Shown piece after piece: positions 8,290-24,039 of a DNA stretch of 64,000 bases; the first letter of the stretch is position 1, and every line of letters starts with the position of its first letter. The stretch comes from Phycicoccus flavus (GTDB lineage: Bacteria > Actinomycetota > Actinomycetes > Actinomycetales > Dermatophilaceae): the NCBI RefSeq assembly GCF_004025965.2, contig NZ_SAYU02000001.1, positions 62,001-126,000 on the forward strand, read 5' to 3'. The position numbers and the translations under genes were made by a program. The notes under the pieces are model-generated. The model saw only the letters and a list, made by a program, of their open reading frames with translations. It did not search any database and was not told the DNA's origin.

Positions 8290-8389
8290 AAACCTTCGAC
8301 AGATTCGTCGACGCGGTGGTGAAGGTCGGGGGCTTGCGAGCGGCCGGACCGGCGCCGGGGCCGCGGCGCGGGACGGGCCGGACCGGCGG

Positions 8390-9022: not shown

Positions 9023-9030
9023 GAAACATC

Positions 9031-9076
9031 TTGACATGGTGCCGGTTGCAGTATCTACTCGTCCTCACTTACTGCA
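9031..9076 (+). promoter_or_regulatory. Promoter with PadR-type operator
   Basis: TTGACA (9031-9036) is followed by a weak -10 (TATCTA at 9052-9057, or TCTACT at 9054-9059). Overlapping the -10 is a perfect inverted repeat TGCAGTA-N16-TACTGCA (9047-9053 and 9070-9076), the size and form expected for a PadR dimer site. It would control the rightward hydrolase operon and probably the divergent padR gene. Confidence 0.6.
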
Positions 9077-9104
9077 CGCTGCACCATCGACGAGGAGCAC
9101 CGCG

Positions 9105-9914: not shown

Positions 9915-10690
9915 CGCTGCTCGTCGTCGTCGCGCACCCGGACGACGAGACCTTCGCCTGCGGGTCCCTCCTCCTGGCCGCCGCCTCGGCCGGCATCCGC
10001 ACCGTCGTCGTGTGCGCCGGGCGCGGCGAGGCCGGCGAGGTCCGCGAGGGCGTCGACCTCCCCGCAGGCGGTATCGCCGAGCTCCGGGAGACCGAGCTGC
10101 GGGCCGCGGCCGACCTGCTCGGGGTGGCCGAGGTCGAGGTCCTCGGCCTGGTGGACTCGGGCATGGGCGGCGAGCCACCGGCGGGGTCGGTGTGCGCCGA
10201 GGCCCCGGAGGCCCTGGCCGCCCGCGTCGCCGACGCCGTCGCCCGGCACCGGCCCGAGGTGCTGGCCGGCCTCGCCGGGGACGACGGCCACCGCGACCAC
10301 CTGGCGGTGCGGGCGGCGCTGACGTCGGTGGCGCTCGAGCAGCGGCTGCCGCTCTACCTCCAGTGCCTGCCCCGCTCGCTCATGCACGAGTGGATCCTCT
10401 CCCGGGCGGGCGACGAGCACTCCGCGGCCTACGTCGAGCTGCCCGACATCGGGACCCCCGACGGGGACCTCACGACGGTCCTGGACTCCGGGGCGCACTA
10501 CGAGCAGCGGCTGGCGGCCATCGCCGTCCACCACTCGCAGCGCTCGCCGTACGACGACCTGCCCGAGGACCTGCGCCGCCGCTTCCTCGCCACCGAGCAC
10601 CTCGTGCGGGTCGGCCCGTCCGCCCCCGTCACGCCGGCGGAGTACGCCCTGCTGGGGTCCGCGGCCCGGCCCCCGACGACCACCGCCTGA
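9911..10690 (+). CDS. PIG-L family deacetylase
   Basis: 259 residues, zinc-dependent LmbE-like N-deacetylase. The zinc site is visible as AHPDDE (residues 8-13) and the later GDDGHRDHLAV, which supplies the other His ligands. Family members remove N-acetyl from sugar or lipid substrates (for example MshB or Mca in mycothiol metabolism); this one is shorter and more divergent than MshB, so the substrate is not assigned. ATGA overlap with the hydrolase indicates a two-gene operon. Confidence 0.8.
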   Translation: MTLLVVVAHPDDETFACGSLLLAAASAGIRTVVVCAGRGEAGEVREGVDLPAGGIAELRETELRAAADLLGVAEVEVLGLVDSGMGGEPPAGSVCAEAPEALAARVADAVARHRPEVLAGLAGDDGHRDHLAVRAALTSVALEQRLPLYLQCLPRSLMHEWILSRAGDEHSAAYVELPDIGTPDGDLTTVLDSGAHYEQRLAAIAVHHSQRSPYDDLPEDLRRRFLATEHLVRVGPSAPVTPAEYALLGSAARPPTTTA

Positions 10691-10736
10691 CCCCGCCCAC
10701 CCCGCCCACCCCGCCCGGGTGCGCGAGGATGGCGGC

Positions 10737-11753
10737 ATGAGCACGCCGCGCACCCTGGACCTGACCGCCGACGGCCTCCGTCTCGAGGTCGTCACCGCGG
10801 GGGCGGCCGTCCGCCGGCTCGTCGTCGAGGACGGCTCCGGTCCGGTCGACGTCGTCCTCGGGCTCGCGGACCCGGCCGACTACGTCGACGACGGCGGCTA
10901 CCTCGGCGCGACGATCGGGCGCTACGGGAACCGCATCGACGCCGGGCGCTTCCCGCTCGACGGCACCGAGCACTCCCTCAGCACCAACCAGTTCGGCAAC
11001 ACCCTGCACGGCGGCGCGCGGGGCTTCGACCGGCACGCGTGGGAGGTGGTCGACTCCGGGCCGGACCACGCGACCCTGGCGCTCACGAGCCCCGACGGCG
11101 ACCAGGGCTTCCCGAGCCGGCTCGAGGTGACGGTGACCTACCGCGTCGCCCCCGGCGAGGTGACCCTGGACTACCGCGCCCGCACGGACGCGCCGACCGT
11201 CGTCAACCTCACGAACCACGCCTACTGGGCGCTGGACGGCGCCGGGTCCGGACCGGTCGACGACCACGTCCTCGAGGTGCCGGCGCCGGCCGTCCTCCCG
11301 GTGCGCGAGGACCTCGTCCCCACCGGCGAGGTCCGCGACGTGGCCGGCACGCCCCTCGATCTGCGCTCACCGGTGCGCATCGGCGACGTCCTCGCCCGCG
11401 ACGACGAGCAGCTGCGGTTCGCCGGCGGCCTCGACCACGGCTACTGCCTCGTCGTCCCCGGCGCCGGGCCCGGCCCGGACGCCGCCCCCCGCGTCGCCGC
11501 CCGCCTCACCGGGACCTCGGGCCGCCGGCTCGAGATCACCACCGACCTGCCGGGCGTCCAGGTGTACACCGGCGCACACTTCGACGGCTCGCAGACCGGG
11601 CTGGACGGCCGTCCGATCGGGGCGCGGGCCGGCGTCGCCCTCGAGACCCAGGGCTGGCCGGACGCCCCGAACCACCCGGACTTCCCGAGCACGGTGCTGC
11701 GGCCCGGCGAGGAGTACCGGACCCGCACCACCTGGCGCCTCGGCCGCGACTGA
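10737..11753 (+). CDS. galM: Aldose 1-epimerase (galactose mutarotase)
   Basis: 338 residues. It interconverts alpha and beta anomers of aldoses. The family marks are all present: GRYGNRI, NTLHGGARGFD, catalytic His in NLTNHAYWAL, FAGGLDHGYCL, and catalytic Glu in ALETQGWPDAPNHP. Length is normal for bacterial GalM. The ATG at 10737 is preferred over an upstream GTG at 10719. It converges on aldO across a hairpin terminator; with that gene and the arabinose module it adds to sugar use. Confidence 0.9.
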   Translation: MSTPRTLDLTADGLRLEVVTAGAAVRRLVVEDGSGPVDVVLGLADPADYVDDGGYLGATIGRYGNRIDAGRFPLDGTEHSLSTNQFGNTLHGGARGFDRHAWEVVDSGPDHATLALTSPDGDQGFPSRLEVTVTYRVAPGEVTLDYRARTDAPTVVNLTNHAYWALDGAGSGPVDDHVLEVPAPAVLPVREDLVPTGEVRDVAGTPLDLRSPVRIGDVLARDDEQLRFAGGLDHGYCLVVPGAGPGPDAAPRVAARLTGTSGRRLEITTDLPGVQVYTGAHFDGSQTGLDGRPIGARAGVALETQGWPDAPNHPDFPSTVLRPGEEYRTRTTWRLGRD

Positions 11754-11763
11754 CCGGGGTGCC

Positions 11764-11781
11764 CCCGTCCCGCAGGACGGG
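11764..11781. terminator. Short hairpin terminator between galM and aldO
   Basis: CCCGTCC-CGCA-GGACGGG forms a perfect 7-bp stem with a tetraloop in the 43-bp gap between two convergent stop codons. It can serve both directions. Confidence 0.6.
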
Positions 11782-11796
11782 CGAGGGCGGACGGGC

Positions 11797-13041
11797 TCAG
11801 GGCAGGACGCGGTCGAGGAAGGCGTTGCCGAAGACGTGCTGGGGGTCGACGCGCTCGCGCAGGTCGGCGAAGTCCCCCAGCCGGGGGAAGACGGCCGCCA
11901 GCGCGGGCGCGTCCATCTCGAAGACCTTGCCCCAGTGCGGCCGGACGTCGAAGGGCGCGAGCACCTCCTCCATCCGCCGGGCCACGCCGCGGACGGCGGG
12001 CTCCTCGCGGCGAAAGGTGAAGTGGAACCCGACGGTGTCGCGGCCGTGGGCACCGCTCAGCCAGTGCTCGTCGCCGGCGATGGTGCGGATCTCCGCGACC
12101 TCCAGGAGCGGCGACAGCTCCTCGCCGATGCCCCGCAGCGCCTCGATGCCCGCGACGGCGTGCTCGCGGGGCACGAAGTACTCGGCCTGGAGCTCCTCGC
12201 CGTTGCTCGGGGTGAACTCCATCCGGAAGTGCGGCAGGCGGTCCAGCCACGGCCCCGGCTCGCCGCCCTGGCCGGTGACGGCCTCGGTCGAGCCGCCGCG
12301 CAGCATGTGCATCGTGTCGGCGGCGGGCACGGTGTCGAAGACGTCGGCGAGCGCGGGCTCGTCGGCCCGGCTCTTCACCCACAGCTGGGTGACGCCGTCA
12401 CCGTCGAACCGGGTGAACATGCTCACGCTGTAGCCGGCGCCGGTGATGTCGTCGAAGCGCCGCTCCACGGTGTCCCAGGTCAGCCCGGTGCGGACCTCCT
12501 GGCGCACGAGGTAGGTCGGCTCGACGTCGAGCTCGAGCCGGGTCACGACGCCGAGCGCGCCGAGGGCCACGACCGACCCGTCGAAGTCGGCGTCCCCGCG
12601 GGCGAGGTGGCGGACCTCGCCGTCCGGACCCATGACGTCGACCGACGCGACGGCCGCGGCCAGCGACCGGTTGCGGTTGCCCGAGCCGTGCGTCCCGGTG
12701 GCCACCGCGCCCGCGACCGAGATGTGCGGCAGCGACGCGAGGTTGGCCAGGGCCCATCCCCGGTCCTCCAGCGCCCGGGCGAGGTCGCCGTAGCGCACCC
12801 CGCCGCTCACCGACACCGTCCGCGCGGCCTCGTCGACGGCGACGTCGTCCGGCAAGCCCGAGAGGTCGACGAGCACCCCGCGGGTGTCGGTGAGGTCGGA
12901 GAAGGAGTGCCGCGAGCCGAGGGCGCGCACCAACGGGGCGCCGGCCACGACCTCGCGCAGCGCGTCGAGCGAGTCGGGTCGCTCCAGCGCCGCGGCGCGG
13001 TAGGTGTGGTTGCCGGCCCAGTTCGTCCCGATGGTCGTCAT
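11797..13041 (-). CDS. aldO: Alditol oxidase, FAD-dependent
   Basis: 414 residues, very like Streptomyces coelicolor alditol oxidase AldO, which oxidises xylitol, sorbitol and glycerol at C1 and makes H2O2. The N-terminal FAD domain has LGSRHSFSDL, whose His is the covalent FAD attachment site, then LPHISVAGAVATGTHGSG. The C-terminal substrate domain has the active-site EIRTIAGDEHWL and HWGKVFEM segments. D-arabinono-1,4-lactone oxidase is the closest alternative name. The start MTTIGTNWAGNHTY matches the family start. Confidence 0.88.
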   Translation of the reverse strand: MTTIGTNWAGNHTYRAAALERPDSLDALREVVAGAPLVRALGSRHSFSDLTDTRGVLVDLSGLPDDVAVDEAARTVSVSGGVRYGDLARALEDRGWALANLASLPHISVAGAVATGTHGSGNRNRSLAAAVASVDVMGPDGEVRHLARGDADFDGSVVALGALGVVTRLELDVEPTYLVRQEVRTGLTWDTVERRFDDITGAGYSVSMFTRFDGDGVTQLWVKSRADEPALADVFDTVPAADTMHMLRGGSTEAVTGQGGEPGPWLDRLPHFRMEFTPSNGEELQAEYFVPREHAVAGIEALRGIGEELSPLLEVAEIRTIAGDEHWLSGAHGRDTVGFHFTFRREEPAVRGVARRMEEVLAPFDVRPHWGKVFEMDAPALAAVFPRLGDFADLRERVDPQHVFGNAFLDRVLP

Positions 13042-13197
13042 CGCCGCTCGCTCCCGGAGGTCAGGGGTGCTCGTCCCACCCCAACCCTAGGTCCCGCCCG
13101 GTGTGAGCACCGGCGCGGTCCGCTGCCGGGGTGGGCCGTCGTCGCAGGACGTCCTCGACCCGCCGGCGCCCGGAGGCACCGCCGGCCGCTCTCCGGG

Positions 13198-13902
13198 TCA
13201 GCGCGAGCGGCGCCGCAGGGCCGCGGCGGTGCCGGCCGCGACGGCGGCGCCGGTGCCGATGGCCCCCGCCCGCAGGATCCGGGCCCGCCGGTCGTGCCGT
13301 CGCGCCGCCTGCACGATGGTGTGGGCCGTGGCGGACGGGCGGGCGTCCTCGGTCTGCTCGACGAGGACGAGCCGCACGGGGCTGTCCTCCTCGCGCAGCT
13401 CGGCGGCGACTGCCTCGTGGAACCCGCGCAGCGCGGCGGCCGCACCCGACTCGGCCGCGCGCCCCGCCTGTCCGCGCCAGGACAGCGGCGAGGTGACGTG
13501 GACGACGGTGCCGGACTCTCGCTCCTTCATCCGCTCCAGCGCCGTCATCGTCGTGTGGACGTGCCCGAGGTAGAGCAGGTCGGTGACCCGCCGCAGCTCC
13601 ATGGGGCACAGGTCGTCGAAGTGGACCGAGCCGGGGTCGTCGGCGGTGTTGACCCAGACGTCGACCTCCCCGAGGGCCTCCTCGATCCGGTCGACGGCGG
13701 ACTCGACCGCGTCGGGGTCGGTGGTGTCGACGACGAGCCCGAGGCCCTGCGCCCCGAGGTCGCGCACGAGGGTCGTCGCCGCGTCGACACTGGCGGGAGT
13801 GCGGGAGAGGAGGGCCACGGCGTCGCCGCGTCGGGCGAACTCGCGCGCCGCGGCCACCGCGGTCTCGGTACAGGCTCCGGTGATGGCGACGACCCTGGAC
13901 AT
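13198..13902 (-). CDS. Short-chain dehydrogenase-like protein with degenerate active site
   Basis: 234 residues with overall SDR layout: N-terminal beta-alpha-beta, VDVWVNTADD where NNAG is expected, and the catalytic helix region. The key residues are lost: the cofactor loop reads TGACTETA and not TG.(x3)G.G, and the YxxxK pair is replaced by E151-SGA-A155. A short Ala/Gly-rich hydrophobic stretch (about 211-228) followed by RRRSR ends the protein. It is probably not an active oxidoreductase; a binding or regulatory role, perhaps at the membrane, is possible. No partner gene is obvious. Confidence 0.7.
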   Translation of the reverse strand: MSRVVAITGACTETAVAAAREFARRGDAVALLSRTPASVDAATTLVRDLGAQGLGLVVDTTDPDAVESAVDRIEEALGEVDVWVNTADDPGSVHFDDLCPMELRRVTDLLYLGHVHTTMTALERMKERESGTVVHVTSPLSWRGQAGRAAESGAAAALRGFHEAVAAELREEDSPVRLVLVEQTEDARPSATAHTIVQAARRHDRRARILRAGAIGTGAAVAAGTAAALRRRSR

Positions 13903-14073
13903 GCTGATAGGACTCCTGGTACTCGGTGTGCGACCCCTGCCGTCGACACGTTGCGGTCATCATGACAACTTCATGCCCCGAACGCCCGCCGACAGCACGA
14001 CTCCCAGCGTTCTCTCAGGGACGGGAGCGCGTCGGTCGGCGTCGCCCGTACGGAGCCGGGACCGGGCGTCCGG

Positions 14074-15579
14074 TCAGGCGCGCAGGTCTCCGAGCCCGTA
14101 GTGCGCGACCTTGCGGTAGAGCGTGGAGCGGCCCATCCCGAGCCGCAGCGCGGCCTGCGTCATGGTCGTCCCCGGCTCGGTGAGCACCCGGGCGATCTCG
14201 TCCCGCTCCAGGGACTCGAGGCGCGACAGCCGCGACCCGCCCCCGCCGAGCACCCCGGGCGGCAGGTGGCGCACGTCGACGGTGTCGGCGCGCGAGGCGG
14301 CGTCGTGGACGACGCGGACGAGCTCGTCGGCGTTGCCGGGCCAGGAGTGGGCGAGCAGCGCGCGCTCGGCCGCCGGGGTGAAGGCGACCTCCCGCAGCCG
14401 GGCCTGGTAGCCGGCGTAGCGGGCGAGGGGCAGCACGTCGTCCGGGCGCTCGCGCAGCGGCGGGACGTCGACGACGGTGTCGACGAGCGACGCGAGCGGG
14501 GCCGGCACCCGGGCCAGCGAGGCCGCCGTCACCGCCCACGCGACGCGCGGACCGGTCCCGTCGGGTCCACCCGCGGACGTGCGGCGGGCGGCGACGGCCC
14601 GCGCGCGCAGCTCCTCGGCGGCCCACGCCGGCAGGGTGTCGACGTGCTCGACGACGACGGCGGTCTCGGGCTTGGCGAGCTCCGGGGTCCACAGGCGCAG
14701 CCACTGCTCGACGTCCTCGGGCGCCGGTGCGGCGGCGCTGAGGATACGGACGCGGGGGTGCGCCCGCCTCAGGGACTGGGCGAGCAGGGTGGCGCGCCCG
14801 GCCCCGGGCTCGCCGACGGCCGCGACGACCCGCCCGTCACGCAGTGCGGTCTCGGCCTCGGCGCCCGCCCGCTGCCACGCCGCGGACATCGCCCGCACCG
14901 TGCCCGCCGCCGGCTCGAGCCGGGCCCGCTGCACTCGGAACACCCCGCCCTTCGGGGGTGTCCGCGGGGTCCGTCCGCCGGCCCGGGCGAGCATGAGCGC
15001 GCTCGTCGTGCCGGCCGCCGACTGGGCCAGGGCGAGCAGCAGGTCGGCGGAGGAGCGAGCCCAGGTCGTGATGTTGACGCAGCCCTCGAGGGCCCCGCTC
15101 ACCGGGTCGAGCACCGGCACGGCGGCACACGTGTACGTGCACAGGCTGGCGCTGTAGTGCTCGTCGGCGCGCACCAGCGAGGGGGTGCGGTCGGCGAGGG
15201 CCAGGCCGAGGCCGTTGGTGCCGGCCTCACGCTCGGAGAAGGCGAAGCCGGGGGCGAGGTGCACCCGGTCCAGCGCCCGCAGCAGCGAGGTGTCGCCCGA
15301 GAACCGGCCGAGCACGAGACCGTCGGCGTCGGTGAGCATGAGGCTGAGCGGCTCGGCGGCCAGGGTCCGGTGCAGGTCGGTGAGCACCTCGTGGCCGCAC
15401 TGCGCGAAGAGGGAGTCGGTGGGGCCGGTGCCGGCCCAGACGGGGTCGACGGCCTCGAGCGAGACGCCGTACTCCTCGCTGCGCCGCCAGGAGGCGAGCA
15501 GCCGGCGGTCGACCGTGCCCGCCACGGCTCCGGGCAGCGCCGCGCGGCGGGGTGGGCCCACCGCGTCGGACGGCTCCAT
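14074..15579 (-). CDS. MimR/AcoR-like activator with degenerate AAA+ domain
   Basis: 501 residues. Order: N-terminal LLASWRRSEEYGV segment and GAF-type sensor (about 50-195), an AAA+-like middle (about 245-440), and a Fis-type HTH_8 at the end (455-498, TMTQAALRLGMGRSTLYRKVAHYGL). The middle domain is eroded: Walker A is GEPGAGRAT (Lys replaced), Walker B is AVVVEHVD, and no GAFTGA sigma-54 loop is present, though RERPDDVLPL and HSWPGNADEL remain. This is like actinobacterial regulators of propane/phenol monooxygenase operons that work without RpoN. GAGAGGAG precedes the ATG. It is divergent from the amidohydrolase operon. Confidence 0.8.
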   Translation of the reverse strand: MEPSDAVGPPRRAALPGAVAGTVDRRLLASWRRSEEYGVSLEAVDPVWAGTGPTDSLFAQCGHEVLTDLHRTLAAEPLSLMLTDADGLVLGRFSGDTSLLRALDRVHLAPGFAFSEREAGTNGLGLALADRTPSLVRADEHYSASLCTYTCAAVPVLDPVSGALEGCVNITTWARSSADLLLALAQSAAGTTSALMLARAGGRTPRTPPKGGVFRVQRARLEPAAGTVRAMSAAWQRAGAEAETALRDGRVVAAVGEPGAGRATLLAQSLRRAHPRVRILSAAAPAPEDVEQWLRLWTPELAKPETAVVVEHVDTLPAWAAEELRARAVAARRTSAGGPDGTGPRVAWAVTAASLARVPAPLASLVDTVVDVPPLRERPDDVLPLARYAGYQARLREVAFTPAAERALLAHSWPGNADELVRVVHDAASRADTVDVRHLPPGVLGGGGSRLSRLESLERDEIARVLTEPGTTMTQAALRLGMGRSTLYRKVAHYGLGDLRA

Positions 15580-15640
15580 CGCCGGCTCCTCTCGTGCTGG
15601 TCCGACGGTAACCCCGGCCCACCTCCCCCGGCGCGCCGGA

Positions 15641-15659
15641 GTGTCCCAAAGTGGGACAC
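15641..15659. promoter_or_regulatory. Inverted-repeat operator for the MimR-like activator
   Basis: GTGTCCCA-AAG-TGGGACAC is a perfect 8+8 bp inverted repeat 62 bp upstream of the regulator start and 82 bp upstream of the amidohydrolase start. A TAGCGT -10-like box lies at 15691-15696. A Fis-type HTH dimer would bind a site of this form. Assignment to the adjacent regulator is inference. Confidence 0.65.
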
Positions 15660-15740
15660 CGGCCCCCTCGTCGGGGCCCGGCCCGCGACCTAGCGTCGAC
15701 AGCGTCCGCGACGACGGCGTCGCGAGAAGGGGACCTGCCG

Positions 15741-16784
15741 ATGTACACCAAGGACGGCGAGAGCTACTACATCGTCGACGCGCACGTGGCGCTGTGGGAC
15801 GCCCGGCCCGAGAACCAGCGCAACATCCACGGCAAGCAGTTCATCGACTGCTTCTACGACTACCACCGCAACCTCTCGCCGGAGCAGGAGGTGTGGGGCT
15901 ACGACGAGTACCTCTACCAGGGCGGCGAGCGCCTCCTGAAGGACCTCTTCGAGGACGGGTACGTCGACCACGCGATCTTCCAGCCGGCCGCCCTCACCGA
16001 GTTCTACGAGCGCGGCTTCGGGCAGACCGAGGAGGCCTTCGCGCTCACCCGCGCCAACCCCGGCAGGCTCACGTACAACCACAACTGGGACCCCCGCAAC
16101 GGCGAGCAGGGGCTGGACCAGCTGCGTGCCGACCACGAGCGGATGGGCTTCACCGGGGTCAAGCTCTACACGGCGGAGTGGCACGGGGAGTCCCGCGGGT
16201 GGAAGCTCACCGACCCGTGGGCCTACCGCTACCTCGAGGCCTGCCGCGAGCTCGGCGTCACGAACATCCACGTCCACAAGGGCCCGACGATCCGCCCGCT
16301 GGACCGCGACGCCTTCGACGTCGCCGACATCGACCACGTCGCCACCGACTTCACCGACCTCAACTTCGTCGTCGAGCACGTCGGCCTGCCCCGGCTCGAG
16401 GACTACTGCTGGATCGCCACCCAGGAGCCCAACGTCTACGGCGGGCTCGCCGTCGCGATGCCGTTCATCCACACCCGGCCCCGCTACTTCGCGCAGATCA
16501 TGGGCGAGCTCCTCTACTGGATCGGCGAGGACCGGATCTTCTTCTCCAGCGACTACGCCATCTGGACCCCGCGCTGGCTCGTCGAGCGGTTCGTCGACTT
16601 CCAGATCCCCGAGGACATGAGCGAGTACGCGCCGATCACGACCGAGCAGAAGAAGAAGATCCTCGGGCTCAACGCGGCGAAGATGTACGGCCTCGACGTC
16701 CCGGCCGAGCTGCGGCTGCCCGACGCCGACGAGACCGCCACCGGCCCCCGGGACCCGGAGGCCGCCGACCTCGCGAGCGTCTGA
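15741..16784 (+). CDS. Amidohydrolase-family (TIM-barrel) metal-dependent hydrolase
   Basis: 347 residues of the amidohydrolase 2 type: DAHVALW at residues 13-19 gives a single N-terminal His (the family usually has DxHxH), then conserved GFTGVKLYTAEWHG, NIHVHKGPTIRP, NFVVEHVGLP and FFSSDYAIWTP segments. Proteins of this type, with the MYTKDGE start, are typical neighbours of actinobacterial propane/phenol binuclear-iron monooxygenase genes, where their role is not settled. First gene of an operon: the next ATG shares one base with this stop. No monooxygenase gene is present here. Confidence 0.78.
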   Translation: MYTKDGESYYIVDAHVALWDARPENQRNIHGKQFIDCFYDYHRNLSPEQEVWGYDEYLYQGGERLLKDLFEDGYVDHAIFQPAALTEFYERGFGQTEEAFALTRANPGRLTYNHNWDPRNGEQGLDQLRADHERMGFTGVKLYTAEWHGESRGWKLTDPWAYRYLEACRELGVTNIHVHKGPTIRPLDRDAFDVADIDHVATDFTDLNFVVEHVGLPRLEDYCWIATQEPNVYGGLAVAMPFIHTRPRYFAQIMGELLYWIGEDRIFFSSDYAIWTPRWLVERFVDFQIPEDMSEYAPITTEQKKKILGLNAAKMYGLDVPAELRLPDADETATGPRDPEAADLASV

Positions 16785-17587
16785 TGACCGCGCTCGCGAC
16801 CCGCACCGCGTCCGGCCCGGTCACCGAGGCCGACGTGCGCGCCGCCCTCGGGACCGTCGTCGACCCCGAGCTCGACGAGCCGGTCACCGACCTCGGCTTC
16901 GTCCGCTCGGTCTCGGTCGGCGGCGGGGCCGGGGCGGCCGACGTCACCGTGCACCTGCGCCTGCCGACGTCGTTCTGCGCGCCGAACTTCGCCTACCTCA
17001 TGGCCTCCGACGCCAAGGACGCCGTCGGCCGGCTGGCCGGGGTGGGGCGGGTGGTCGTCGAGCTCGACGACCACCACGACTCCGACCTCATCAACCGCGG
17101 GCTCGCCGCGGACGCCGGCTACGTCGGCACCTTCGGGCACGAGGCCGAGAGCGACCTCGACGAGCTGCGCGCCACGTTCCGGCGCAAGGCGCACACCGCC
17201 GCCCTGGAGCGCTGCCTCACGGCGCTGCTGCGGGCCGAGCCGTCCCGCACCGAGGCCTCGCTGGGGTCGGTGCGGCTGGCCGACCTGCCGGACGGCCGGG
17301 AGCGGCTCGCGCTGCTCGCCCGCCGCGAGGCGCTCGGCCTACCGACCGACGGCGACGCGCTCGTCCTCGTCGACCACGACGGCGTCCCCCCGCCGGGGGA
17401 CCGGGTCGCGCTGTTCCTCCGCAAGGCACGCTCGACCCGGATCAGCATCGACGGCAACGCGCACTTCTGCCGGGGACTGCTGCGCACCCGCTACGCAGGC
17501 TCCGGCGACGACCAGAGCCCCCGCGAGGACGGCGCCGAGCCGGCCGACCACCACCACCTGCTGCCCCTCACCGTGAAGGAGACCTGA
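16784..17587 (+). CDS. DUF59/MIP18-type iron-sulfur assembly domain protein
   Basis: 267 residues. An N-terminal FeS assembly P domain (about 12-95: VRAALGTVVDPELDEPVTDLGFV and LPTSFCAPNFAYLMASD, with the conserved Cys) is followed by about 170 residues with no domain I recognise, including DLPDGRERLALLARREALGL and an internal HFCRGLLRTRYAG segment. The long form of DUF59 protein is the one seen in monooxygenase-linked operons, where a role in metal-centre maturation is plausible. TGATG coupling with the amidohydrolase and a 3-bp gap to the dehydrogenase place it in one operon. Confidence 0.75.
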   Translation: MTALATRTASGPVTEADVRAALGTVVDPELDEPVTDLGFVRSVSVGGGAGAADVTVHLRLPTSFCAPNFAYLMASDAKDAVGRLAGVGRVVVELDDHHDSDLINRGLAADAGYVGTFGHEAESDLDELRATFRRKAHTAALERCLTALLRAEPSRTEASLGSVRLADLPDGRERLALLARREALGLPTDGDALVLVDHDGVPPPGDRVALFLRKARSTRISIDGNAHFCRGLLRTRYAGSGDDQSPREDGAEPADHHHLLPLTVKET

Positions 17588-17590
17588 GCC

Positions 17591-18625
17591 ATGTCCACCA
17601 TGCGCGCCGTCCGCGTCGTCGGCTACCACGAGAAGCTCGAGATGACCGAGGTGGACGTCCCCGAGGCCACCGGGCCGTGGGACGTCGTCGTGCGGATCGG
17701 CGGGGCGGGCGTGTGCCGCACCGACCTGCACATCCTCGAGGGGCAGTGGGCCGAGAAGTCGCAGGTGACGCTGCCGTACACGATCGGCCACGAGAACGCG
17801 GGCTGGGTGCACGCCGTCGGGTCCGCGGTGACCAACGTCGCCGAGGGCGACAAGGTCATCCTCCACCCGCTCGTCACCTGCGGGCTGTGCCGGGCCTGCC
17901 GCTCCGGGGACGACGTGCACTGCGAGAACAGCGCCTTCCCGGGCATCGACACCCACGGCGGGTACGCCGAGTACCTGCTGACCTCGGCCCGCTCCTGCGT
18001 GCGGATCGACGACGCGCTGGAGCCGGCCGACGTCGCCGCCCTGGCCGACGCCGGCCTCACCGCCTACCACGCGGCGGCCAAGGCGGCCCGCCGGCTCACG
18101 CCCCGGGACACCTGCGTCGTCATCGGCGCCGGGGGCCTCGGGCACATCGGCATCCAGGTGCTCAAGGCGCTGACACCGGCCCGGCTCGTCGTCGTCGACC
18201 GGATCCCGGCCGCCCTCGACCTCGCGAGGACCATCGGGGCCGACGTCGGCGTCCCGGCCGACGGCGGGCAGGTCGAGGCCGTCCTCGACCTCACCGGCGG
18301 CACCGGGGCCGAGGTCGTCGTCGACTTCGTCGGCGAGAACGGCTCGACGGCCGAGGGCCTCGCGATGACCCGGCAGGCCGGCGACTACCACGTCGTCGGC
18401 TACGGCGAGAACGTCGACGTGCCCACCATCGACCTCGTCTCGAGCGAGAAGAACGTCGTCGGCAACCTCGTCGGGTCCTACAACGACCTCCAGGACCTCA
18501 TGGCGCTGGCGGCCAAGGGGCTCGTCACGCTGCACACCCAGAAGTACGCGCTCGACGACTTCCAGCAGGCCGTCACCGACCTGGACAACGGCGACGTCCG
18601 CGGGCGCGCCATCCTCGTGCCCTGA
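17591..18625 (+). CDS. Zinc-dependent alcohol dehydrogenase
   Basis: 344 residues, medium-chain dehydrogenase. Catalytic zinc ligands are in GVCRTDLH, GHENAGWV; the structural zinc loop is CGLCRACRSGDDVHC; the NAD fold starts with GAGGLGHIGIQ and the acidic residue after VVVD favours NAD over NADP. In related monooxygenase operons the enzyme oxidises the alcohol made by the oxygenase (for example 2-propanol to acetone); here the substrate is unknown. It follows the DUF59 gene by 3 bp and is followed by a hairpin, so it ends the three-gene operon. Confidence 0.88.
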   Translation: MSTMRAVRVVGYHEKLEMTEVDVPEATGPWDVVVRIGGAGVCRTDLHILEGQWAEKSQVTLPYTIGHENAGWVHAVGSAVTNVAEGDKVILHPLVTCGLCRACRSGDDVHCENSAFPGIDTHGGYAEYLLTSARSCVRIDDALEPADVAALADAGLTAYHAAAKAARRLTPRDTCVVIGAGGLGHIGIQVLKALTPARLVVVDRIPAALDLARTIGADVGVPADGGQVEAVLDLTGGTGAEVVVDFVGENGSTAEGLAMTRQAGDYHVVGYGENVDVPTIDLVSSEKNVVGNLVGSYNDLQDLMALAAKGLVTLHTQKYALDDFQQAVTDLDNGDVRGRAILVP

Positions 18626-18637
18626 CCCGGGGCCTCC

Positions 18638-18662
18638 CACCCCCGACCCGCGGACGGGGGTG
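18638..18662 (+). terminator. Hairpin terminator after the dehydrogenase
   Basis: CACCCCCG and CGGGGGTG form an 8-bp GC stem with a 9-base loop starting 12 bp after the stop codon. It separates the three-gene operon from the following ABM gene, at least in part. Confidence 0.55.
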
Positions 18663-18728
18663 ACATCCTTCGCCCGGACGATCGATGTCACCCACGTCCG
18701 CGACACCCCGACCGAGGAAGGACCCCCG

Positions 18729-19055
18729 ATGATCCTCATCACCGTCAAGTTCCCGATCCGCGAGGACAAGCTGGCCGAGTGGCGCGAGCTGTCCCGGTTC
18801 TACGTCGACGCCGTGACCGCCGAGCCGGGCAACGTCTTCTTCGAGTTCTCCGAGAGCGTCGACGAGCCCAACACCTTCGTGTGCATCGAGGGCTTCCGCG
18901 ACGACGCGGCGGGGAAGGCGCACATGGAGCAGGAGCACGTCGCGCGGTTCATGTCCGAGATGCCGGACATCGTCGCCGCGCAGCCGCAGATCATCTACGT
19001 CGACGCCGAGGAGGTCACCGGCTTCGGGCCCATGGGCGAGATCCAGCCCCGCTGA
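18729..19055 (+). CDS. Antibiotic biosynthesis monooxygenase (ABM) domain protein
   Basis: 108 residues, one ABM dimeric alpha-beta barrel: ILITVKFPIREDKLAEWREL, then AEPGNVFFEFSESVDEPNTFVCIEGF, then HMEQEHVARFMSEMPDIV. Proteins of this form include YgiN quinol monooxygenases and small auxiliary enzymes of aromatic breakdown; without a tested substrate the role is open. GAGGAAGGA lies upstream of the ATG. The position directly after the amidohydrolase-dehydrogenase operon suggests a shared pathway. Confidence 0.75.
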   Translation: MILITVKFPIREDKLAEWRELSRFYVDAVTAEPGNVFFEFSESVDEPNTFVCIEGFRDDAAGKAHMEQEHVARFMSEMPDIVAAQPQIIYVDAEEVTGFGPMGEIQPR

Positions 19056-19125
19056 GGTCCTCGCCGTCCCGGGCCCGGCGCCACGACCTCCGTCCCGGGA
19101 CCGCGCGCGGAGCCACGCGGCCGGC

Positions 19126-19159
19126 CGGGACCCGTGCTCGTGCGGGACCCGTGCTCGTG
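19126..19159. repeat. Two tandem 17-bp repeats in the 19.1-kb intergenic region
   Basis: CGGGACCCGTGCTCGTG occurs twice head to tail (19126-19142 and 19143-19159), followed by a decayed third start (CGGGACGCGTCGTG). It lies between the ABM gene and the SRPBCC gene. It may be a polymerase-slippage repeat or a regulator site; there is no direct evidence for function. Confidence 0.7.
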
Positions 19160-19213
19160 CGGGACGCGTCGTGCGCGGGAGCGTTCGTGTCGGTCGGCTG
19201 GGAGGATGGGCGG

Positions 19214-19705
19214 GTGCTCGGGGACCGGTGGGGCGTGACGGACGCCGAGGTGGCGTCCCGGTTCGCCTGCGACGACCTCGTCCCCGCCCCCGTGCTCTCG
19301 GCCTGGCGCGGCGTCACCGTCGAGGCTCCACCGCTGCGGGTCTGGCCGTGGGTCGCGCAGGTCCGGGTGGCGCCGTACTCCTACGACCTCGTCGACAACC
19401 TCGGACGGCGCTCCCCCCGGCGGCTCGTCGGGCTCGCCGAGCCGCGGGCCGGGGAGCCCTTCACGACGGCGTTCGGCCGGCCGCAGGGCGAGATCCTCGC
19501 CGTGGACCCCGGCCGCCAGCTGACCGGACGCATCCTCGGCGCGGTCATGAGCTACCGGCTCGAGCCGCTCGGGCCCGCCGCCACCCGGCTCGTGCTCAAG
19601 CTCGTCCTGGTGCGCGGACGCCTCCTCGCGCCCCCGGTCTCCGTCGGGGACCTCGTCATGGCCCGCCGCCAGCTGCTCACGTGGAAGGAGCTCGCGGAGC
19701 GGTGA
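19214..19705 (+). CDS. SRPBCC-family protein
   Basis: 163 residues. The pattern WGVTDAEVASRFACDDLVPAP, then the strand APPLRVWPWVAQVRVAPYSYDLVDNLG and late RLVLKLVLVRGRL is that of the START/polyketide-cyclase-like SRPBCC proteins common in actinobacteria, which hold hydrophobic ligands. No catalytic function can be assigned. The GTG at 19214 is chosen because homology starts there and no earlier start has a ribosome site; the leader may be very short. Confidence 0.6.
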   Translation: MLGDRWGVTDAEVASRFACDDLVPAPVLSAWRGVTVEAPPLRVWPWVAQVRVAPYSYDLVDNLGRRSPRRLVGLAEPRAGEPFTTAFGRPQGEILAVDPGRQLTGRILGAVMSYRLEPLGPAATRLVLKLVLVRGRLLAPPVSVGDLVMARRQLLTWKELAER

Positions 19706-19795
19706 CCCCCGGGCCGGCGCAGCCCGGTCGGGGGGTTCCGGCCCCCCGCTCCCGGCCCTACGGTGGAGACCCCCCCGAGGACAGTGAGGTCCGTC

Positions 19796-20095
19796 ATGAG
19801 CCAGGTCCAGGTCGTCGCTACCATCCCCGTCCGGCCCGACCGGCGCAGCGAGGCGCTCGAGGTCCTCGGGACGCTCGTCGAGGCGACCCGGGCGGAGGAG
19901 GGGTGCCTGGCCTACGACCTCTTCGAGTCGGCCGCCGCCCCGGACGTGTTCGTCATGGTCGAGAGGTACGCCGACCAGGCCGCCCTCGACGCCCACATGT
20001 CCTCGGAGCACCTGGCGGCCGCCTTCGCCGCGGCCCAGGACCTGCTCGCGGGCGAGGTGGCCATCCACCCGCTCGTCCCGGTCGTCGCCGCCTGA
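19796..20095 (+). CDS. Second ABM-domain monooxygenase-like protein (YgiN type)
   Basis: 99 residues. VQVVATIPVRPDRRSEALEVL, AEEGCLAYDLFESAAAPDVFVMVERY and AHMSSEHLAAAFA are the three standard blocks of the ABM fold, closer to YgiN-type quinol monooxygenases than the 18.7-kb gene. ATG at 19796 is preceded by GTGAGG. It ends 18 bp from a convergent gene. Two ABM genes within 1.1 kb, separated by an SRPBCC gene, is unusual and may mark a small-molecule oxidation pathway. Confidence 0.78.
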   Translation: MSQVQVVATIPVRPDRRSEALEVLGTLVEATRAEEGCLAYDLFESAAAPDVFVMVERYADQAALDAHMSSEHLAAAFAAAQDLLAGEVAIHPLVPVVAA

Positions 20096-20113
20096 CCGGG
20101 GCGACCGCGACCC

Positions 20114-20899
20114 TCAGGTGAGGGCGCGGACGTCCTCGGGCAGCGCACCCGACCCGTCGACGACCCGCTCCACCAGCTGCTGCAGCGCCGTCAGCGCCAC
20201 CCGCTGCGACCACGGACCGTAGGACACCCGGGCCACCCCGAGCTGCTCGAGCTCCGCGTGGGGCAGGCTGCCCGGCACCTCGATGAGGGTGAGCCGCTGG
20301 CTGCCGAGCGCGTCGACGAGGGCCTCGACATGCGCGCGCTCGGTCACCCGCGGGACGAACACGCAGGGCGCCCCCGCGTCGAGGAAGGCCCGCCCGCGGG
20401 CGACGGCCTCGTCCAGGCACTCCTGCGGCGAGCGGTCCGCCGTCCGCACGAAGGCGTCGGTGCGGGCGTTGAGGACGAAGTCGGGGACGCCGGCGGACTC
20501 CGCGGCGGCCATCACCGCCTCGACCGCCCGGACCGCCTCGGGCAGCGGGCGCATCCCGTCCTCGATGTTCGCCCCGACGACCCCGAGGTCGACGGCCCGC
20601 GCGACGGTGTCCCCGGGGTCTCCGTAGCCGGACTCCAGGTCGGCGGTCACCGGGAGCTCGGTGGCCCGGACGATGCGGCCGACGGCGGCCAGCATCTCGT
20701 CCCGGGGGATGTGCTCGCCGTCCTCGTACCCGAGCGAGGCGGCGATCGAGTGCGAGGCCGTCGCGAGCGCCGTCGTCCCCGGCACGTCGGCGACGACCCG
20801 GGCGCTGACGACGTCCCACACGTTGACGACGGTGAGCAGGTCGCGGGCGCGGTGCAGGTCGAGGAAGGAGGCGGCGAGGGCGGCGGTGTCCTGGCTCAT
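20114..20899 (-). CDS. Isocitrate lyase/PEP mutase-superfamily protein
   Basis: 261 residues, TIM-barrel enzyme of the ICL/PEPM family. Mg/substrate segments are visible: TADLESGYGD (replacing the DxDxGYG loop), GANIEDGMRPL, and NARTDAFV. The KKCGH loop of true isocitrate lyases is absent, so oxaloacetate decarboxylase-, 2-methylisocitrate lyase- or carboxyphosphonoenolpyruvate-like activity is more likely. Start ATG at 20899 (MSQDTAAL) is preferred over 20935 because homology begins there. Confidence 0.75.
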   Translation of the reverse strand: MSQDTAALAASFLDLHRARDLLTVVNVWDVVSARVVADVPGTTALATASHSIAASLGYEDGEHIPRDEMLAAVGRIVRATELPVTADLESGYGDPGDTVARAVDLGVVGANIEDGMRPLPEAVRAVEAVMAAAESAGVPDFVLNARTDAFVRTADRSPQECLDEAVARGRAFLDAGAPCVFVPRVTERAHVEALVDALGSQRLTLIEVPGSLPHAELEQLGVARVSYGPWSQRVALTALQQLVERVVDGSGALPEDVRALT

Positions 20900-21042
20900 C
20901 GCCCCAGCATCCCGGGCTGACCCCGGACGCGACAACCGTCCGGGGGTGAGTGCGCGCCGGGGCGCCGGGGGCGCGACCTAGAGTGGTGACGACCGCGCGG
21001 ATCGTCGGGCGGGCCCCAGGAACCGGCGACGGACGGAGCGTG

Positions 21043-21540
21043 ATGGACCTCGACCTCGGGATGCTGCTGATCCGGCTGGCGCTGGGGCCGATGCTCGTCG
21101 TCCACGGCTACAACAAGGTGTGGGGCGGCGGCGGGCTGGACGGCACCGCCGGCTGGTTCGAGGGGCTCGGGCTGCGCCCGGGGTGGCTGCACGCCCGGCT
21201 CGGCGCCGGCACCGAGCTCGTCGCCGGGGTGCTCGTCACCCTCGGCCTCCTCACCGGGCTCGCGTCGACCGCGTTCGTCGGGCTCATGACGGTCGCCGCG
21301 CTCACCGACCACCGGGGCAAGGGCTTCTTCGTCTTCAAGGGCGGCTGGGAGTACGTCGCGGTCGTCGCCGTCCTCGCCGTCGCGCTCGCGGTGCTGGGGC
21401 CGGGCGCCTGGTCGCTGGACGCGGCGCTGGGGCTGCCGCTCTCCGGGGTGGTCTGGGGTGTCGTCGCCGCGGTCGGCGGGGTCGCCGCGGCCCTCGCACT
21501 GCTCGCCGTCTTCCGGCGGCCGGCCCCCGGCGGGGCCTGA
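21043..21540 (+). CDS. DoxX-family membrane protein
   Basis: 165 residues, four transmembrane segments. The DoxX marks are LLIRLALGPMLVVHGYNKVWGGGGL and the GAGTELVAGVLVTLGLLTGLAS segment. DoxX proteins are linked to redox and quinone metabolism but their biochemical role varies. GGAG precedes the ATG. The stop codon overlaps the gpgS start (TGATG), so it leads a coupled run of four genes. Confidence 0.8.
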   Translation: MDLDLGMLLIRLALGPMLVVHGYNKVWGGGGLDGTAGWFEGLGLRPGWLHARLGAGTELVAGVLVTLGLLTGLASTAFVGLMTVAALTDHRGKGFFVFKGGWEYVAVVAVLAVALAVLGPGAWSLDAALGLPLSGVVWGVVAAVGGVAAALALLAVFRRPAPGGA

Positions 21541-22466
21541 TGCCCGTCCGCACCCTCGCCGGCGGCCACGACGCGCAGGAGCTGCTCGCGGCCAAGGGGG
21601 ACACGGTCGTCACCGTCGTCGTCCCGGCCCGCGACGAGGAGGCGACGGTCGGGGACGTCGTGTCCGGGATCCGGCGGGCCTGGGTGGACCGGGTCCCGCT
21701 CGTCGACGAGCTCGTCGTCCTCGACTCCGACTCCACCGACGCCACGGCCGCCGTGGCCGCGGCCGCCGGCGCCACCGTGCACGCGGCCGCGGACGTGCGT
21801 CCCGACCTCGGGCCCGCCCGCGGCAAGGGCGAGGCGCTGTGGAAGTCGCTGCACGTCACCCGCGGGGACGTCCTCGTCTTCGTCGACGCCGACCTCGTCG
21901 AGTGGGACGTCGGCTTCGTCAGCGGGCTGCTGGCGCCGTTGCTCACCGACCCCACGGTGGCGCTGGTCAAGGCCGTCTACGACCGGCCGCTGCTCGACGC
22001 CGCCGGGCACGAGGCCGAGACCGGCGGCCGGGTCACCGAGCTCGTCGCCCGGCCGCTGCTGGCGCTGCACCGCCCCGACCTCGCCGGGCTCGTCCAGCCG
22101 CTGGCGGGGGAGTGGGCGGTCCGCCGGTCGGTGTTCGAGCGCTTCTCGGTCCCGGTGGGGTACGGCGTCGAGATCGCCGCGGTGCTCGACACCGCCGCCG
22201 CCCTCGGCGCCGACGCGGTGGCGCAGGTCGACCTCGGCCGCCGTGCCCACCGGCACCACCGGCACGACACCCTCGGCCCGATGGCGGTGCAAGTGCTCTC
22301 CGCCGTCGAGCGCCGGGTCGGGCGGGCCGCCGAGCGCCCGGACACCGCGGTCCTCGTCCAGTACGAGCGCGGGCCCTCGGGGTTCGAGGCCCGGCCGCGC
22401 GACGTCGACCTCGCCGAGCGTCCGCCCGCGGTGAGCACGCCGGGCTACCCGGGGGGTGCGCGATGA
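21540..22466 (+). CDS. gpgS: Glucosyl-3-phosphoglycerate synthase
   Basis: 308 residues, GT-A (GT81) glycosyltransferase that makes glucosyl-3-phosphoglycerate from UDP-glucose and 3-phosphoglycerate, the first step to glucosylglycerate and methylglucose lipopolysaccharide. Marks: VTVVVPARDEEATVGDVV, RGKGEALWKSL, the metal-binding VFVDADLVEWD and GYGVEIAAVLDTA. It follows DoxX by a one-base overlap and overlaps folP by ATGA. The gpgS-folP2 pairing is the same as in mycobacteria (Rv1208-Rv1207), which supports the call. Confidence 0.88.
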   Translation: MPVRTLAGGHDAQELLAAKGDTVVTVVVPARDEEATVGDVVSGIRRAWVDRVPLVDELVVLDSDSTDATAAVAAAAGATVHAAADVRPDLGPARGKGEALWKSLHVTRGDVLVFVDADLVEWDVGFVSGLLAPLLTDPTVALVKAVYDRPLLDAAGHEAETGGRVTELVARPLLALHRPDLAGLVQPLAGEWAVRRSVFERFSVPVGYGVEIAAVLDTAAALGADAVAQVDLGRRAHRHHRHDTLGPMAVQVLSAVERRVGRAAERPDTAVLVQYERGPSGFEARPRDVDLAERPPAVSTPGYPGGAR

Positions 22467-23338
22467 CCCGCGGTGCACCCCTGCGGCTCGGCCGGCGCAG
22501 CCACCCCGCGAGCGCCCGGCTCGTCATGGCCATCGTCAACCGGACGCCGGACTCCTTCTACGACAGGGGCCTCACCTGGGCCGAGGACGCGGCCCTCGAC
22601 CGGGTCCGGCAGGTCGTCGACGAGGGAGCGGACCTCGTCGACATCGGCGGCATCAAGGCGGCCCCGGGCGTGGAGGTCGACGCCGCCGAGGAGAAGCAGC
22701 GTGTCGTCGGCTTCGTCGAGCGGGTGCGGGCCGAGCACCCCGACCTCGTCATCAGCGTCGACACCTGGCGGGCCGAGGTGGCCCGCGCCGTGCTCAAGGT
22801 GGGCGCCGACGTCGTCAACGACGCGTGGGGCGGCGCCGACCCCGCCCTGCCCGAGGTCGTGGCCGAGTTCGGCGCCGGGCTCGTCCTCACCCACACCGGG
22901 GGCGTGACGCCACGGACCCGCCCGCACCGGATCGAGTACGACGACGTCGTCGCCGACGTCCGCCAGTCCCTGCTGCGGCAGGCCGAGCGCGCCGTCGCGG
23001 CCGGGGTCGAGCGGGAGCGGGTCGTCATCGACCCCGCGCACGACTTCGGCAAGAACACCTGGCATTCCCTCGAGGTCACGAGGCGGCTGCACGAGCTGAC
23101 GTCGCTGGGCTGGCCGGTGCTCGTGTCCCTGTCGAACAAGGACTTCGTCGGCGAGGCCCTCGACCGTCCGGTGGGGGAGCGCCTCACCGGCACCCTCGCG
23201 GCCACGGCCCTGTGCGCCTGGCACGGCGCGCAGGTCTACCGCGTCCACGAGGTGCCGCAGACCCGCGAGGTCCTCGACCTCGTGTCCGTCGTGGCGGGCG
23301 ACCTGCCCCCGGCGCGCACGGTGCGGGGGCTGGCGTGA
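22463..23338 (+). CDS. folP2: Dihydropteroate synthase-family protein (FolP2-like)
   Basis: 291 residues, pterin-binding TIM barrel. VMAIVNRTPDSFYDRG, DIGGIKAAPG, VISVDTWRAEVARAVLKVGADVVNDAWGG and VIDPAHDFGKNTWHS match DHPS blocks, but DVGGESTRPG is altered to DIGGIKAAPG, so the pABA/pterin loop is non-standard. The mycobacterial FolP2 in the same gene position has been reported to lack normal DHPS activity. It is therefore probably not the folate enzyme and may act with GpgS. Coupled on both sides by 4-bp overlaps. Confidence 0.8.
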   Translation: MTRGAPLRLGRRSHPASARLVMAIVNRTPDSFYDRGLTWAEDAALDRVRQVVDEGADLVDIGGIKAAPGVEVDAAEEKQRVVGFVERVRAEHPDLVISVDTWRAEVARAVLKVGADVVNDAWGGADPALPEVVAEFGAGLVLTHTGGVTPRTRPHRIEYDDVVADVRQSLLRQAERAVAAGVERERVVIDPAHDFGKNTWHSLEVTRRLHELTSLGWPVLVSLSNKDFVGEALDRPVGERLTGTLAATALCAWHGAQVYRVHEVPQTREVLDLVSVVAGDLPPARTVRGLA

Positions 23339-23958
23339 GCGGCTCGCTCGTCGTCGTCCCCGGCGCGCCGCTGCTGCTGCCCGAGTACACCGGCCGCGCC
23401 GACGCGGGCTCCGCGCTGCGCGAGCGGGCGGTGCAGGCGATCGGCGCCGCCACCGACCTCGACGGCACCGACCGCGTCGTCCTCGTCGTCGCCACCGACC
23501 GTGAACAGCGGGGGACGCGCTCGCCGCTCGGGCAGCGGGTGGGCTCGCACCTGTGCGGGCTGGCCGGGGTCGGGGTCGACGGTGTCCTCGTCGTCGCCTG
23601 GGACGCCCCGGTGGCCGAGTGCCGCGCGTTGGGCGAGCACCTGGCCGGCCGGCCCGCCGTGACCCTCGTCGCCGTCGCCGACGGCAGCGCGCGCCGCGGG
23701 GAGAAGGCGCCCGGCCACCTGGACCCCCGGGCCGTCGTCTTCGACGACGACCTCGTCGCCGCCCTGCGCGCGGCCGACCCGGCGGCGCTGCTGGACCTCG
23801 ACCCGGCCCTCGCCGCCGAGCTGCTGGCCCACGGCCGAGCGCCGCTGCAGGTCGCCGCGGCGGCGCTGGCCGGGCGTGGCGGGCTGCACTGCGCCGACCT
23901 CGAGACCGCCGACCCGTTCGGCGTCCTCTACGTCGTCGCCCGCCTCTCCGCCGCCTGA
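23335..23958 (+). CDS. Class III extradiol dioxygenase (LigB)-like domain protein
   Basis: 207 residues, no transmembrane segment. The opening LVVVPGAPLLLPEYTG, the mid region RVVLVVATDREQ, and the end GRAPLQVAAAALAG ... DPFGVLYVVARL resemble the LigB-subunit-like proteins of actinobacteria. The metal histidines of true dioxygenases are not evident, so catalysis is doubtful. GTG start overlaps the folP2 stop (GTGA). Last gene of the DoxX-gpgS-folP2 run; function unknown. Confidence 0.5.
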   Translation: MSGSLVVVPGAPLLLPEYTGRADAGSALRERAVQAIGAATDLDGTDRVVLVVATDREQRGTRSPLGQRVGSHLCGLAGVGVDGVLVVAWDAPVAECRALGEHLAGRPAVTLVAVADGSARRGEKAPGHLDPRAVVFDDDLVAALRAADPAALLDLDPALAAELLAHGRAPLQVAAAALAGRGGLHCADLETADPFGVLYVVARLSAA

Positions 23959-24039
23959 CCGCGAACCCCACGGGCGGCCGGGACGGCCCGCTGCCGCCCA
24001 CCCACGGGGGCGGGGGGCGGCGGACCCGCCCCTTCGTGG

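Follow-up and report, generated by a model that had tools for sequence, protein, structure and literature searches.

A probably regulator-controlled amidohydrolase, DUF59 and alcohol dehydrogenase module in Phycicoccus flavus, conserved apart from the propane-type monooxygenase it usually accompanies

We analyzed a stretch of 64,000 nt of the Phycicoccus flavus contig NZ_SAYU02000001.1 (hereafter the window, to whose positions all coordinates refer). Positions 14074-20095 hold a regulator gene (REG) on the minus strand, divergent from plus-strand genes for an amidohydrolase (AMH), a long DUF59 protein, a zinc alcohol dehydrogenase (ADH), a first ABM-domain protein (ABM1), an open reading frame (ORF) of no known family and a second ABM-domain protein (ABM2) (Table 1). 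The AMH, DUF59 and ADH genes, here called the trio, are known mainly by their usual company, the binuclear-iron monooxygenase (BMM) of propane oxidation; in PMC7176365, PMC4428276 and PMC6849523, as far as covered here, the amidohydrolase and DUF59 genes that go with propane or acetone monooxygenases are given no role. We find that the trio is a co-regulated yet separable module, real and conserved in its own right. ORFs and Pfam matches bear out the layout proposed in an initial annotation of this DNA, a GAF/AAA-like/HTH_8 activator divergent from amidohydrolase, DUF59 and zinc alcohol dehydrogenase genes, with two ABM genes in the operon that both match PF03992. Pfam does not support the SRPBCC label given there to the ORF that ends at 19705, and two genes that follow REG on its own strand, for a short-chain dehydrogenase/reductase (SDR) and an AldO-like oxidase, had been missed.

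Table 1. Genes and regulatory features around the operon, in window coordinates
Feature	Position	Strand	Basis or remark
Alditol/xylitol-oxidase-like FAD oxidase (AldO-like)	11797..13041	-	PDB 2vfr 'xylitol oxidase' E 2e-126; Pfam FAD_binding_4 + ALO
SDR between REG and AldO-like gene	13198..13902	-	Pfam adh_short
REG: GAF + degenerate AAA + Fis-type helix-turn-helix (HTH) activator, MimR-like	14074..15579	-	Pfam GAF, AAA_lid_14, HTH_8
Proposed REG -10 hexamer TACCGT (on - strand), 40 nt from operator centre	15605..15610	-	read from sequence
Operator GTGTCCCAAAGTGGGACAC	15641..15659	no strand	core GTCCCAAAGTGGGAC at 15643-15657
Proposed AMH-operon -10 hexamer TAGCGT, 41 nt from operator centre	15691..15696	+	read from sequence
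AMH, amidohydrolase-2 family	15741..16784	+	PF04909, E 9e-50
Long DUF59 protein	16784..17587	+	PF01883 plus ~170 further residues
ADH, medium-chain zinc alcohol dehydrogenase, NAD-type by motif	17591..18625	+	ADH_N + ADH_zinc_N
ABM1	18729..19055	+	Pfam ABM PF03992
ORF labelled SRPBCC in the initial annotation; start uncertain	19151..19705	+	no Pfam match; 72% identical ORF in L121
ABM2	19796..20095	+	Pfam ABM PF03992; 62% identity in L121

The operator that had been read between the divergent genes was confirmed at 15641-15659 as a perfect palindrome, GTGTCCCA AAG TGGGACAC. It is the sole site within three mismatches in the window (shuffled sequences gave a mean of 0.33, and at least one such loose site in 26 of 100) and the single perfect copy in the whole genome. 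A scan of the genome for this 19-bp sequence, which the initial annotation had proposed, thus returned that one copy, while looser matches stayed at background (8 forward versus 12 reversed-control sites) and were rejected as regulon sites; conservation across loci is therefore stronger evidence for the operator than rarity. When the window was compared with 25 relatives, every one of the 26 loci had this palindrome class in the space between REG and AMH, with one mismatch in L043 and L044 and exact in the other 24; the class also stands upstream of AMH in all 76 loci that have no BMM alpha-subunit gene within 6.5 kb (74 exact; L140 and L183 with one mismatch). Across 30 genomes, 49 forward sites matched GTCTCRnnnTGAGAC, whereas its reversed control matched 1.

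Promoter geometry is conserved as well. On the AMH side, 56 of 75 loci without BMM alpha nearby have a TAnnnT-type hexamer that starts at a distance of 40-42 nt from the middle of the operator, against at most 2 at any offset in a wrong-strand control; on the REG side, a hexamer at 40-41 nt is found in 14 of the 75. Six loci have ADH displaced beyond REG (L052, L056, L058, L059, L061 and L062), and in each of them a second operator precedes the displaced gene at equal distance, two exact and four with one mismatch.

REG has the architecture of MimR, an acetone-responsive activator: GAF, AAA and Fis-type HTH domains in a gene divergent from its target, an orientation relative to AMH that is conserved across the loci of relatives. 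It does not look like a classical sigma-54 activator. The core ATPase domain PF00158 is unmatched in REG, whose AAA region is visible only through the lid domain AAA_lid_14; the GAFTGA loop is not present in its sequence; and Walker A reads GEPGAGRA, with R replacing K. Sigma-54 is not known from Actinobacteria. The top NCBIfam match of REG is DhaR (99 bits), but this score is far under the DhaR cut-off of 551 bits, and REG differs from the DhaR-type GAF/Fis activators in its degenerate AAA core without GAFTGA.

The trio also stands without an oxygenase, and does so across many genera. A profile search of the whole 4.26-Mb, 98%-complete Phycicoccus flavus assembly for PF02332, the family of BMM alpha and beta subunits, gave 0 matches, as it did in 14 control genomes (P450, Baeyer-Villiger monooxygenases, AlkB and other oxygenases were outside the search). 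The search itself works, since it found the family in 7 of the 31 genomes, among 297 of the order, that carry AMH (E<=1e-60; 33 matches); the remaining 24 have no PF02332 match at all. To follow the locus more widely we used a one-genome-per-species scan, which returned at least 545 relatives among 596 pattern matches, and took its best 80 loci; gene calls in unannotated loci were made with tblastn and a simple GC-frame script. No BMM alpha occurs in the fetched stretch (up to 19 kb) of 75 of these 80, the stretch of L187 reaching other subunits of a separate BMM locus, and 76 have none within 6.5 kb of AMH. All four core genes are present in 70 of the 76; the other six are cut by a contig end (L150, L154, L177 and L186) or lack REG (L156) or ADH (L191). 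Whole-genome searches of 50 of these genomes left 35 without a PF02332 match, Arthrobacter koreensis (L147) among them; among the 15 with one, three (L156, L189 and L196) have BMM in or beside the locus. In a sample of 396 genomes of the phylum, some incomplete, AMH (E<=1e-100) occurs in 37, PF02332 above its cut-off in 26 and both in 15, so that 22 of the 37 AMH genomes have no PF02332 above cut-off and 21 no match of any kind (G398 has one weak match). The idea that the oxygenase lies elsewhere in the genome finds no support in the window's own genome in terms of PF02332, but holds for some relatives (15 of 50, and Mycobacterium sp. AT1).

Outside this set the trio is found more widely than its control. 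In another class of the phylum, 14 loci carry the trio with no match to REG and no GTCTC-type operator, and in several of them an IclR-type gene adjoins it (that of L277 scores below every cut-off). AMH, DUF59 and ADH also lie together on two plasmids of haloarchaea whose records contain no PF02332 (chromosomes were not searched), and on a Thermomicrobium plasmid, with PF02332 about 370 kb away on the same plasmid; Peribacillus has AMH-DUF59 with a divergent Fis-type regulator. Conservation of the trio thus goes further than that of its control. In the open-licence literature, considered mostly at the level of listings, we found no paper that treats the oxygenase-less operon as a separate system; one paper reports the unlinked trio of Mycobacterium sp. 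AT1 (PMC6849523).

The closest known systems are the prm/mim clusters of Gordonia TY-5, Rhodococcus RHA1 and BCP1, and Mycobacterium, which share the amidohydrolase-DUF59-ADH order, a Fis-type regulator, an ABM gene and the operator class. The prm order in PMC4428276 includes a metal-dependent hydrolase, a metal-sulfur enzyme, ADH, GroEL, a Fis regulator and ABM, and PMC8394569 describes a mim cluster in a metagenome-assembled genome. The window locus differs from them in having no oxygenase subunits and no GroEL-like MimG, in its regulator subtype and in an operator placed directly before AMH. No member of the GroEL cluster was found in window positions 6001-26000, the stretch to which that search was confined. 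GroEL genes near the oxygenase-less Kribbella loci L131 and L151 were rejected as MimG, because a GroES-like gene precedes them and we read them as housekeeping genes. All 20 propane-type BMM loci, defined by an alpha subunit with 77% identity or more to the one in L064, have the operator class upstream: 14 are exact GTCTC-type, L235 has the GTCCC...GGGAC form, and L189, L197, L200, L223 and L225 have one mismatch; an exact operator was found in none of four more distant BMM loci (alpha 62-76%; L037, L072, L281 and L282).

Three layouts recur: BMM with trio and GroEL (e.g., L221, L222, L224, L232 and L233); BMM-GroEL without AMH (L226-L229), the trio being at another locus (L172, L173, L179 and L168); and the trio alone. 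The second is found in mycobacteria, where the trio is split from BMM. For Mycobacterium sp. AT1, PMC6849523 reports a separate chromosomal place for the first three accessory genes (amidohydrolase, a protein of unknown function and ADH); their locus (L168) has the same REG and operator arrangement, but BMM genes remain in the AT1 genome, whereas PF02332 is absent from that of the window. In the gene-order comparison the oxygenase-less trio is widespread, and both arrangements that the initial annotation had named as contrary to its proposal also occur in relatives. BMM operons with trio copies of their own are found in G121, G135, Prauserella alba and Amycolatopsis. BMM lies inside the trio locus in Kribbella and Nocardia; plain deletion in the window is nevertheless less likely, because the regulators of BMM loci are 28-44% identical to the window's REG, whereas those of oxygenase-less loci in its clade are mostly 50-78% identical (lowest 48%). 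Exceptions are L066-L068, trio loci with no BMM nearby yet a regulator of the 33-43% type, whose genomes have BMM elsewhere, and L156, with no REG of its own. In Prauserella alba (L187), an oxygenase-less trio locus and a trio-bearing BMM locus are convergent, end to end. In a tree of AMH (111 rows, labelled by locus; bootstrap not settled), the BMM label needs 5 changes against a shuffled mean of 16, and 87 of the 94 rows in the main actinobacterial clade are labelled as without BMM.

Natural changes in regulator and operator go together. The last-helix segment reads RAT in 94 of 98 REG sequences and RST in the other four, namely the window, L138, and the pair L038 and L121 from a single genome of the window's genus. 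The operators of these four are GTCCC...GGGAC in the window, L038 and L121, and GTCCC...GAGAC in L138; the fully changed operator accompanies no RAT regulator, and a half-changed one accompanies several. Modestobacter lapidis has the GTCCC...GGGAC form at both of its operators, GTCCCAAAGTGGGAC at the trio (L156), where no REG is nearby, and GTCCCAAATTGGGAC at the BMM operon (L235), where the linked regulator belongs to the other subtype and has RSS at this position of the helix. RAT is found in all 21 remaining loci of the BMM-locus set where the helix was found. Modestobacter lapidis is an independent case of co-change; the lineages are few, but they agree. Its REG-less trio may be run by the BMM-linked regulator. 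This agreement, seen in two regulator subtypes, raises our trust in binding of the palindrome by REG, a well-supported inference. We leave our overall confidence in the reading set out below unchanged, because the substrate is its weak point. The BMM-GroEL operon of Modestobacter lapidis is convergent to the trio.

Sequence and models suggest the kinds of enzyme that are involved. The first metal motif of AMH aligns as HxA, not HxH. No PDB sequence matched AMH at E 0.001, and its model is of low confidence (pLDDT 65), which led us to drop any active-site claim from it; its fold matches suggest a relationship with ACMSD-type decarboxylases and hydratases, including ACMSD and the 5-carboxyvanillate and 2,6-dihydroxybenzoate decarboxylases. 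AMH departs from this group in having HxA where HxH is expected and is 15-19% identical to the named matches. HxA was rejected as a mark of oxygenase loss, as it occurs in all 79 readable loci of the best 80 (L135 was unread), among them the BMM-linked L156, L189, L196, L197 and L200, and also in BMM-linked L223, while HxH is found in the nested BMM-linked rows L035 and L221. In the DUF59 protein (model pLDDT 82), whose N-terminal fold matches DUF59/CIAO2B, C66, C230 and D97/H98 are invariant in 15 sequences (reference numbered from the translation at 16781), the cysteines falling in both the family part and the extra part. ADH has the motifs C-x2-C-x2-C-x7-C, GHE and GAGGLG...VVVDR, and family and motifs together predict a medium-chain dehydrogenase/reductase fold, two zinc sites and the Asp after the second strand. 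Its best solved relative is 1h2b, followed by ADH-A of Rhodococcus ruber, a secondary alcohol dehydrogenase, and variants of it, a likeness judged from sequence.

We give an even chance to the reading that the locus is a stand-alone, activator-controlled operon for small molecules that are already oxygenated. REG would bind the palindrome between the divergent promoters, which is centred about 50 nt before each of the two predicted starts and would take the place of a -35 element; once it has bound an inducer, REG would switch on AMH-DUF59-ADH. ADH would then oxidize a short secondary alcohol, diol or hydroxyketone with NAD, candidates being 2-propanol, 1,2-propanediol and acetol; AMH, as an ACMSD/LigW-type non-hydrolytic amidohydrolase, would act on the carbonyl product of ADH; and DUF59 would load or hold the AMH metal, or act with AMH. 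Since the substrate would already carry oxygen, no oxygenase would be needed; propane degraders have the same trio plus the oxygenase under the same kind of operator. The trio is best read as the half of the propane/acetone route that follows the oxygenase, with small alcohols or hydroxyketones as the most likely substrates. The architecture is close to certain and comes, like the conservation, the operator, the promoter geometry and the absence of PF02332, directly from calculation; the chemistry is a reasoned guess, the inducer, the substrate and the roles of AMH and DUF59 being only inferred. That the accessory genes serve a different substrate, as the initial annotation had supposed, is probably right, in that the trio seems to serve something other than, or besides, BMM. 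A further proposal is doubtful, in our estimate: AMH and the long DUF59 protein might together make up an as yet undescribed metalloenzyme in the metabolism of C3 hydroxycarbonyls (acetol, methylglyoxal or the hydrates of these), part of an old module shared by bacteria and haloarchaea and taken for oxygenase helpers only because it was first met beside propane monooxygenase.

Some neighbouring genes point the same way. AldO takes polyols, and GldA acts on 1,2-propanediol and acetol. The AldO-like gene recurs in L121/L038 (one genome, 73% identity), there directly after REG on the same strand, and a 54% identical homologue lies near AMH in Modestobacter lapidis (L156); it is likely part of the system in the window's genus only. 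The SDR has a single match (35% identity, E 1e-15) among the 150 loci of our neighbour survey, some of which are the same place twice, and whether it belongs to the system is uncertain. Of 38 genomes, 3 have GldA relatives, and two of these three have the operator 80-95 nt before the gene (L127/L214, one place, and G157, where a MIP channel follows). In L144 GldA follows ADH directly, after a gap of 62 nt, and L148 has a GldA remnant. In the other class of the phylum, the trio has GldA close by in L272, L275 and L277 and glyoxalase-I-like neighbours in L275-L278, while in Peribacillus a DJ-1/PfpI gene lies behind AMH-DUF59. These neighbours agree on small polyols, hydroxyketones and methylglyoxal, compounds that come after acetone in the route proposed for Actinomycetospora (PMC7176365). 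There, acetone and 2-hydroxyisobutyrate both strongly induced the Mim cluster, whose ADH and AMH made up 6.1% and 3.2% of the proteome, and Adh1 was named as a candidate for the oxidation step after acetol (PMC7176365).

Several results weigh against the stand-alone operon, besides the confinement of the oxygenase search to one family. The phylum sample shows a strong association of BMM with AMH (BMM in 15 of 37 AMH genomes versus 11 of 359 others), and in the AMH tree the nearest BMM-linked group is a weakly supported sister (94/82) of the window's group, which leaves room for an ancestral loss of BMM. Control by REG and the operator is not universal, as the 14 loci of the other class indicate, and the half-changed operators of several RAT regulators mean that half-change does not need a change of helix. 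The suggestive neighbours are a minority: among the 150 loci, 7 have GldA, counting one remnant and one gene cut off where the locus ends, 4 have glyoxalase-like genes, whose products all score below NCBIfam cut-offs, 1 has DJ-1, and the AldO-like gene occurs in 3 rows of 2 genomes besides the window. At E 1e-80 no GldA relative was found in the genome of the window, and in G120, the third genome with GldA, the gene lacks an operator.

The association with BMM, the weakly supported sister group, BMM inside the Kribbella and Nocardia loci and the mycobacterial split (PMC6849523) would all suit a relic of a propane-type cluster, with the oxygenase lost and the trio left over or working only with a BMM elsewhere. 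We consider this unlikely, as none of the 33 AMH matches contains an internal stop, 35 of the 50 genomes searched have no PF02332 and 22 of the 37 in the phylum sample none above cut-off, the window's clade has its own regulator type and conserved operator, and Prauserella alba keeps both kinds of locus side by side; the haloarchaeal plasmid trios, whose records hold no PF02332 as noted above, point in the same direction. Removal of reactive carbonyls such as methylglyoxal and glycolaldehyde arising from polyols is quite unlikely: glyoxalase-I-like, DJ-1-family and GldA-type neighbours would fit detoxification, but they are rare, and a Mim-cluster AMH and ADH at several per cent of the Actinomycetospora proteome suggest a main carbon route (PMC7176365). 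Very improbable, finally, is a new oxidation pathway with the ABM proteins as cofactor-free oxygenases, as the initial annotation had offered. Two ABM genes do lie directly downstream, and ABM1 is kept in near relatives (92% identity within the genus, 77-80% in three family relatives); the proposal could also draw on L211, a BMM locus of Amycolatopsis in which an ABM gene has an operator copy to itself. However, ABM is found on the plus strand in only 26 of the 76 loci without nearby BMM, a few of them cut by a contig end, and was not seen in the other 50, so it fails as a core gene. ABM also accompanies BMM clusters (e.g., L035; PMC4428276), and the only NCBIfam match of either ABM protein is an isomerase family, below its cut-off. 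The L211 gene (3863), in Amycolatopsis acidicola, lies behind a BMM-GroEL operon.

The trio genes, known mainly as helpers of a propane-oxidizing enzyme, probably have a function of their own. Strains with trio and operator but no PF02332 match make their role testable apart from the oxygenase, and the operator, the promoter geometry and the natural co-changes of helix and operator are handles for finding the inducer. The trio genes are, moreover, unsafe as genomic markers of propane oxidation.

Some further features were noted around the operator. By eye, an inverted repeat CGCGAC...GTCGCG lies at 15707-15724, between the predicted AMH transcription start and the start codon; it recurs in the family relatives L040-L042 and, with one mismatch, in L038. 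The genome of the window has a single perfect GTCTC-type site, C46 (L111, 4003), which precedes cupin-like and VOC-like genes and was not counted as a regulon member, because the window's REG has a changed helix. In two mycobacterial genomes, L201 (10313) and L219 (93), a large regulator that is LuxR/MalT-like by sequence has the operator palindrome 178-179 nt ahead of its gene. Operator-like sites are also found about 300-530 nt before katG-like genes in three genomes (L114, L115 and L218), with a Fur-like ORF between in L114, and Rhodococcus aetherivorans BW2 likewise has a Fur-katG pair close to its BMM locus (L035).

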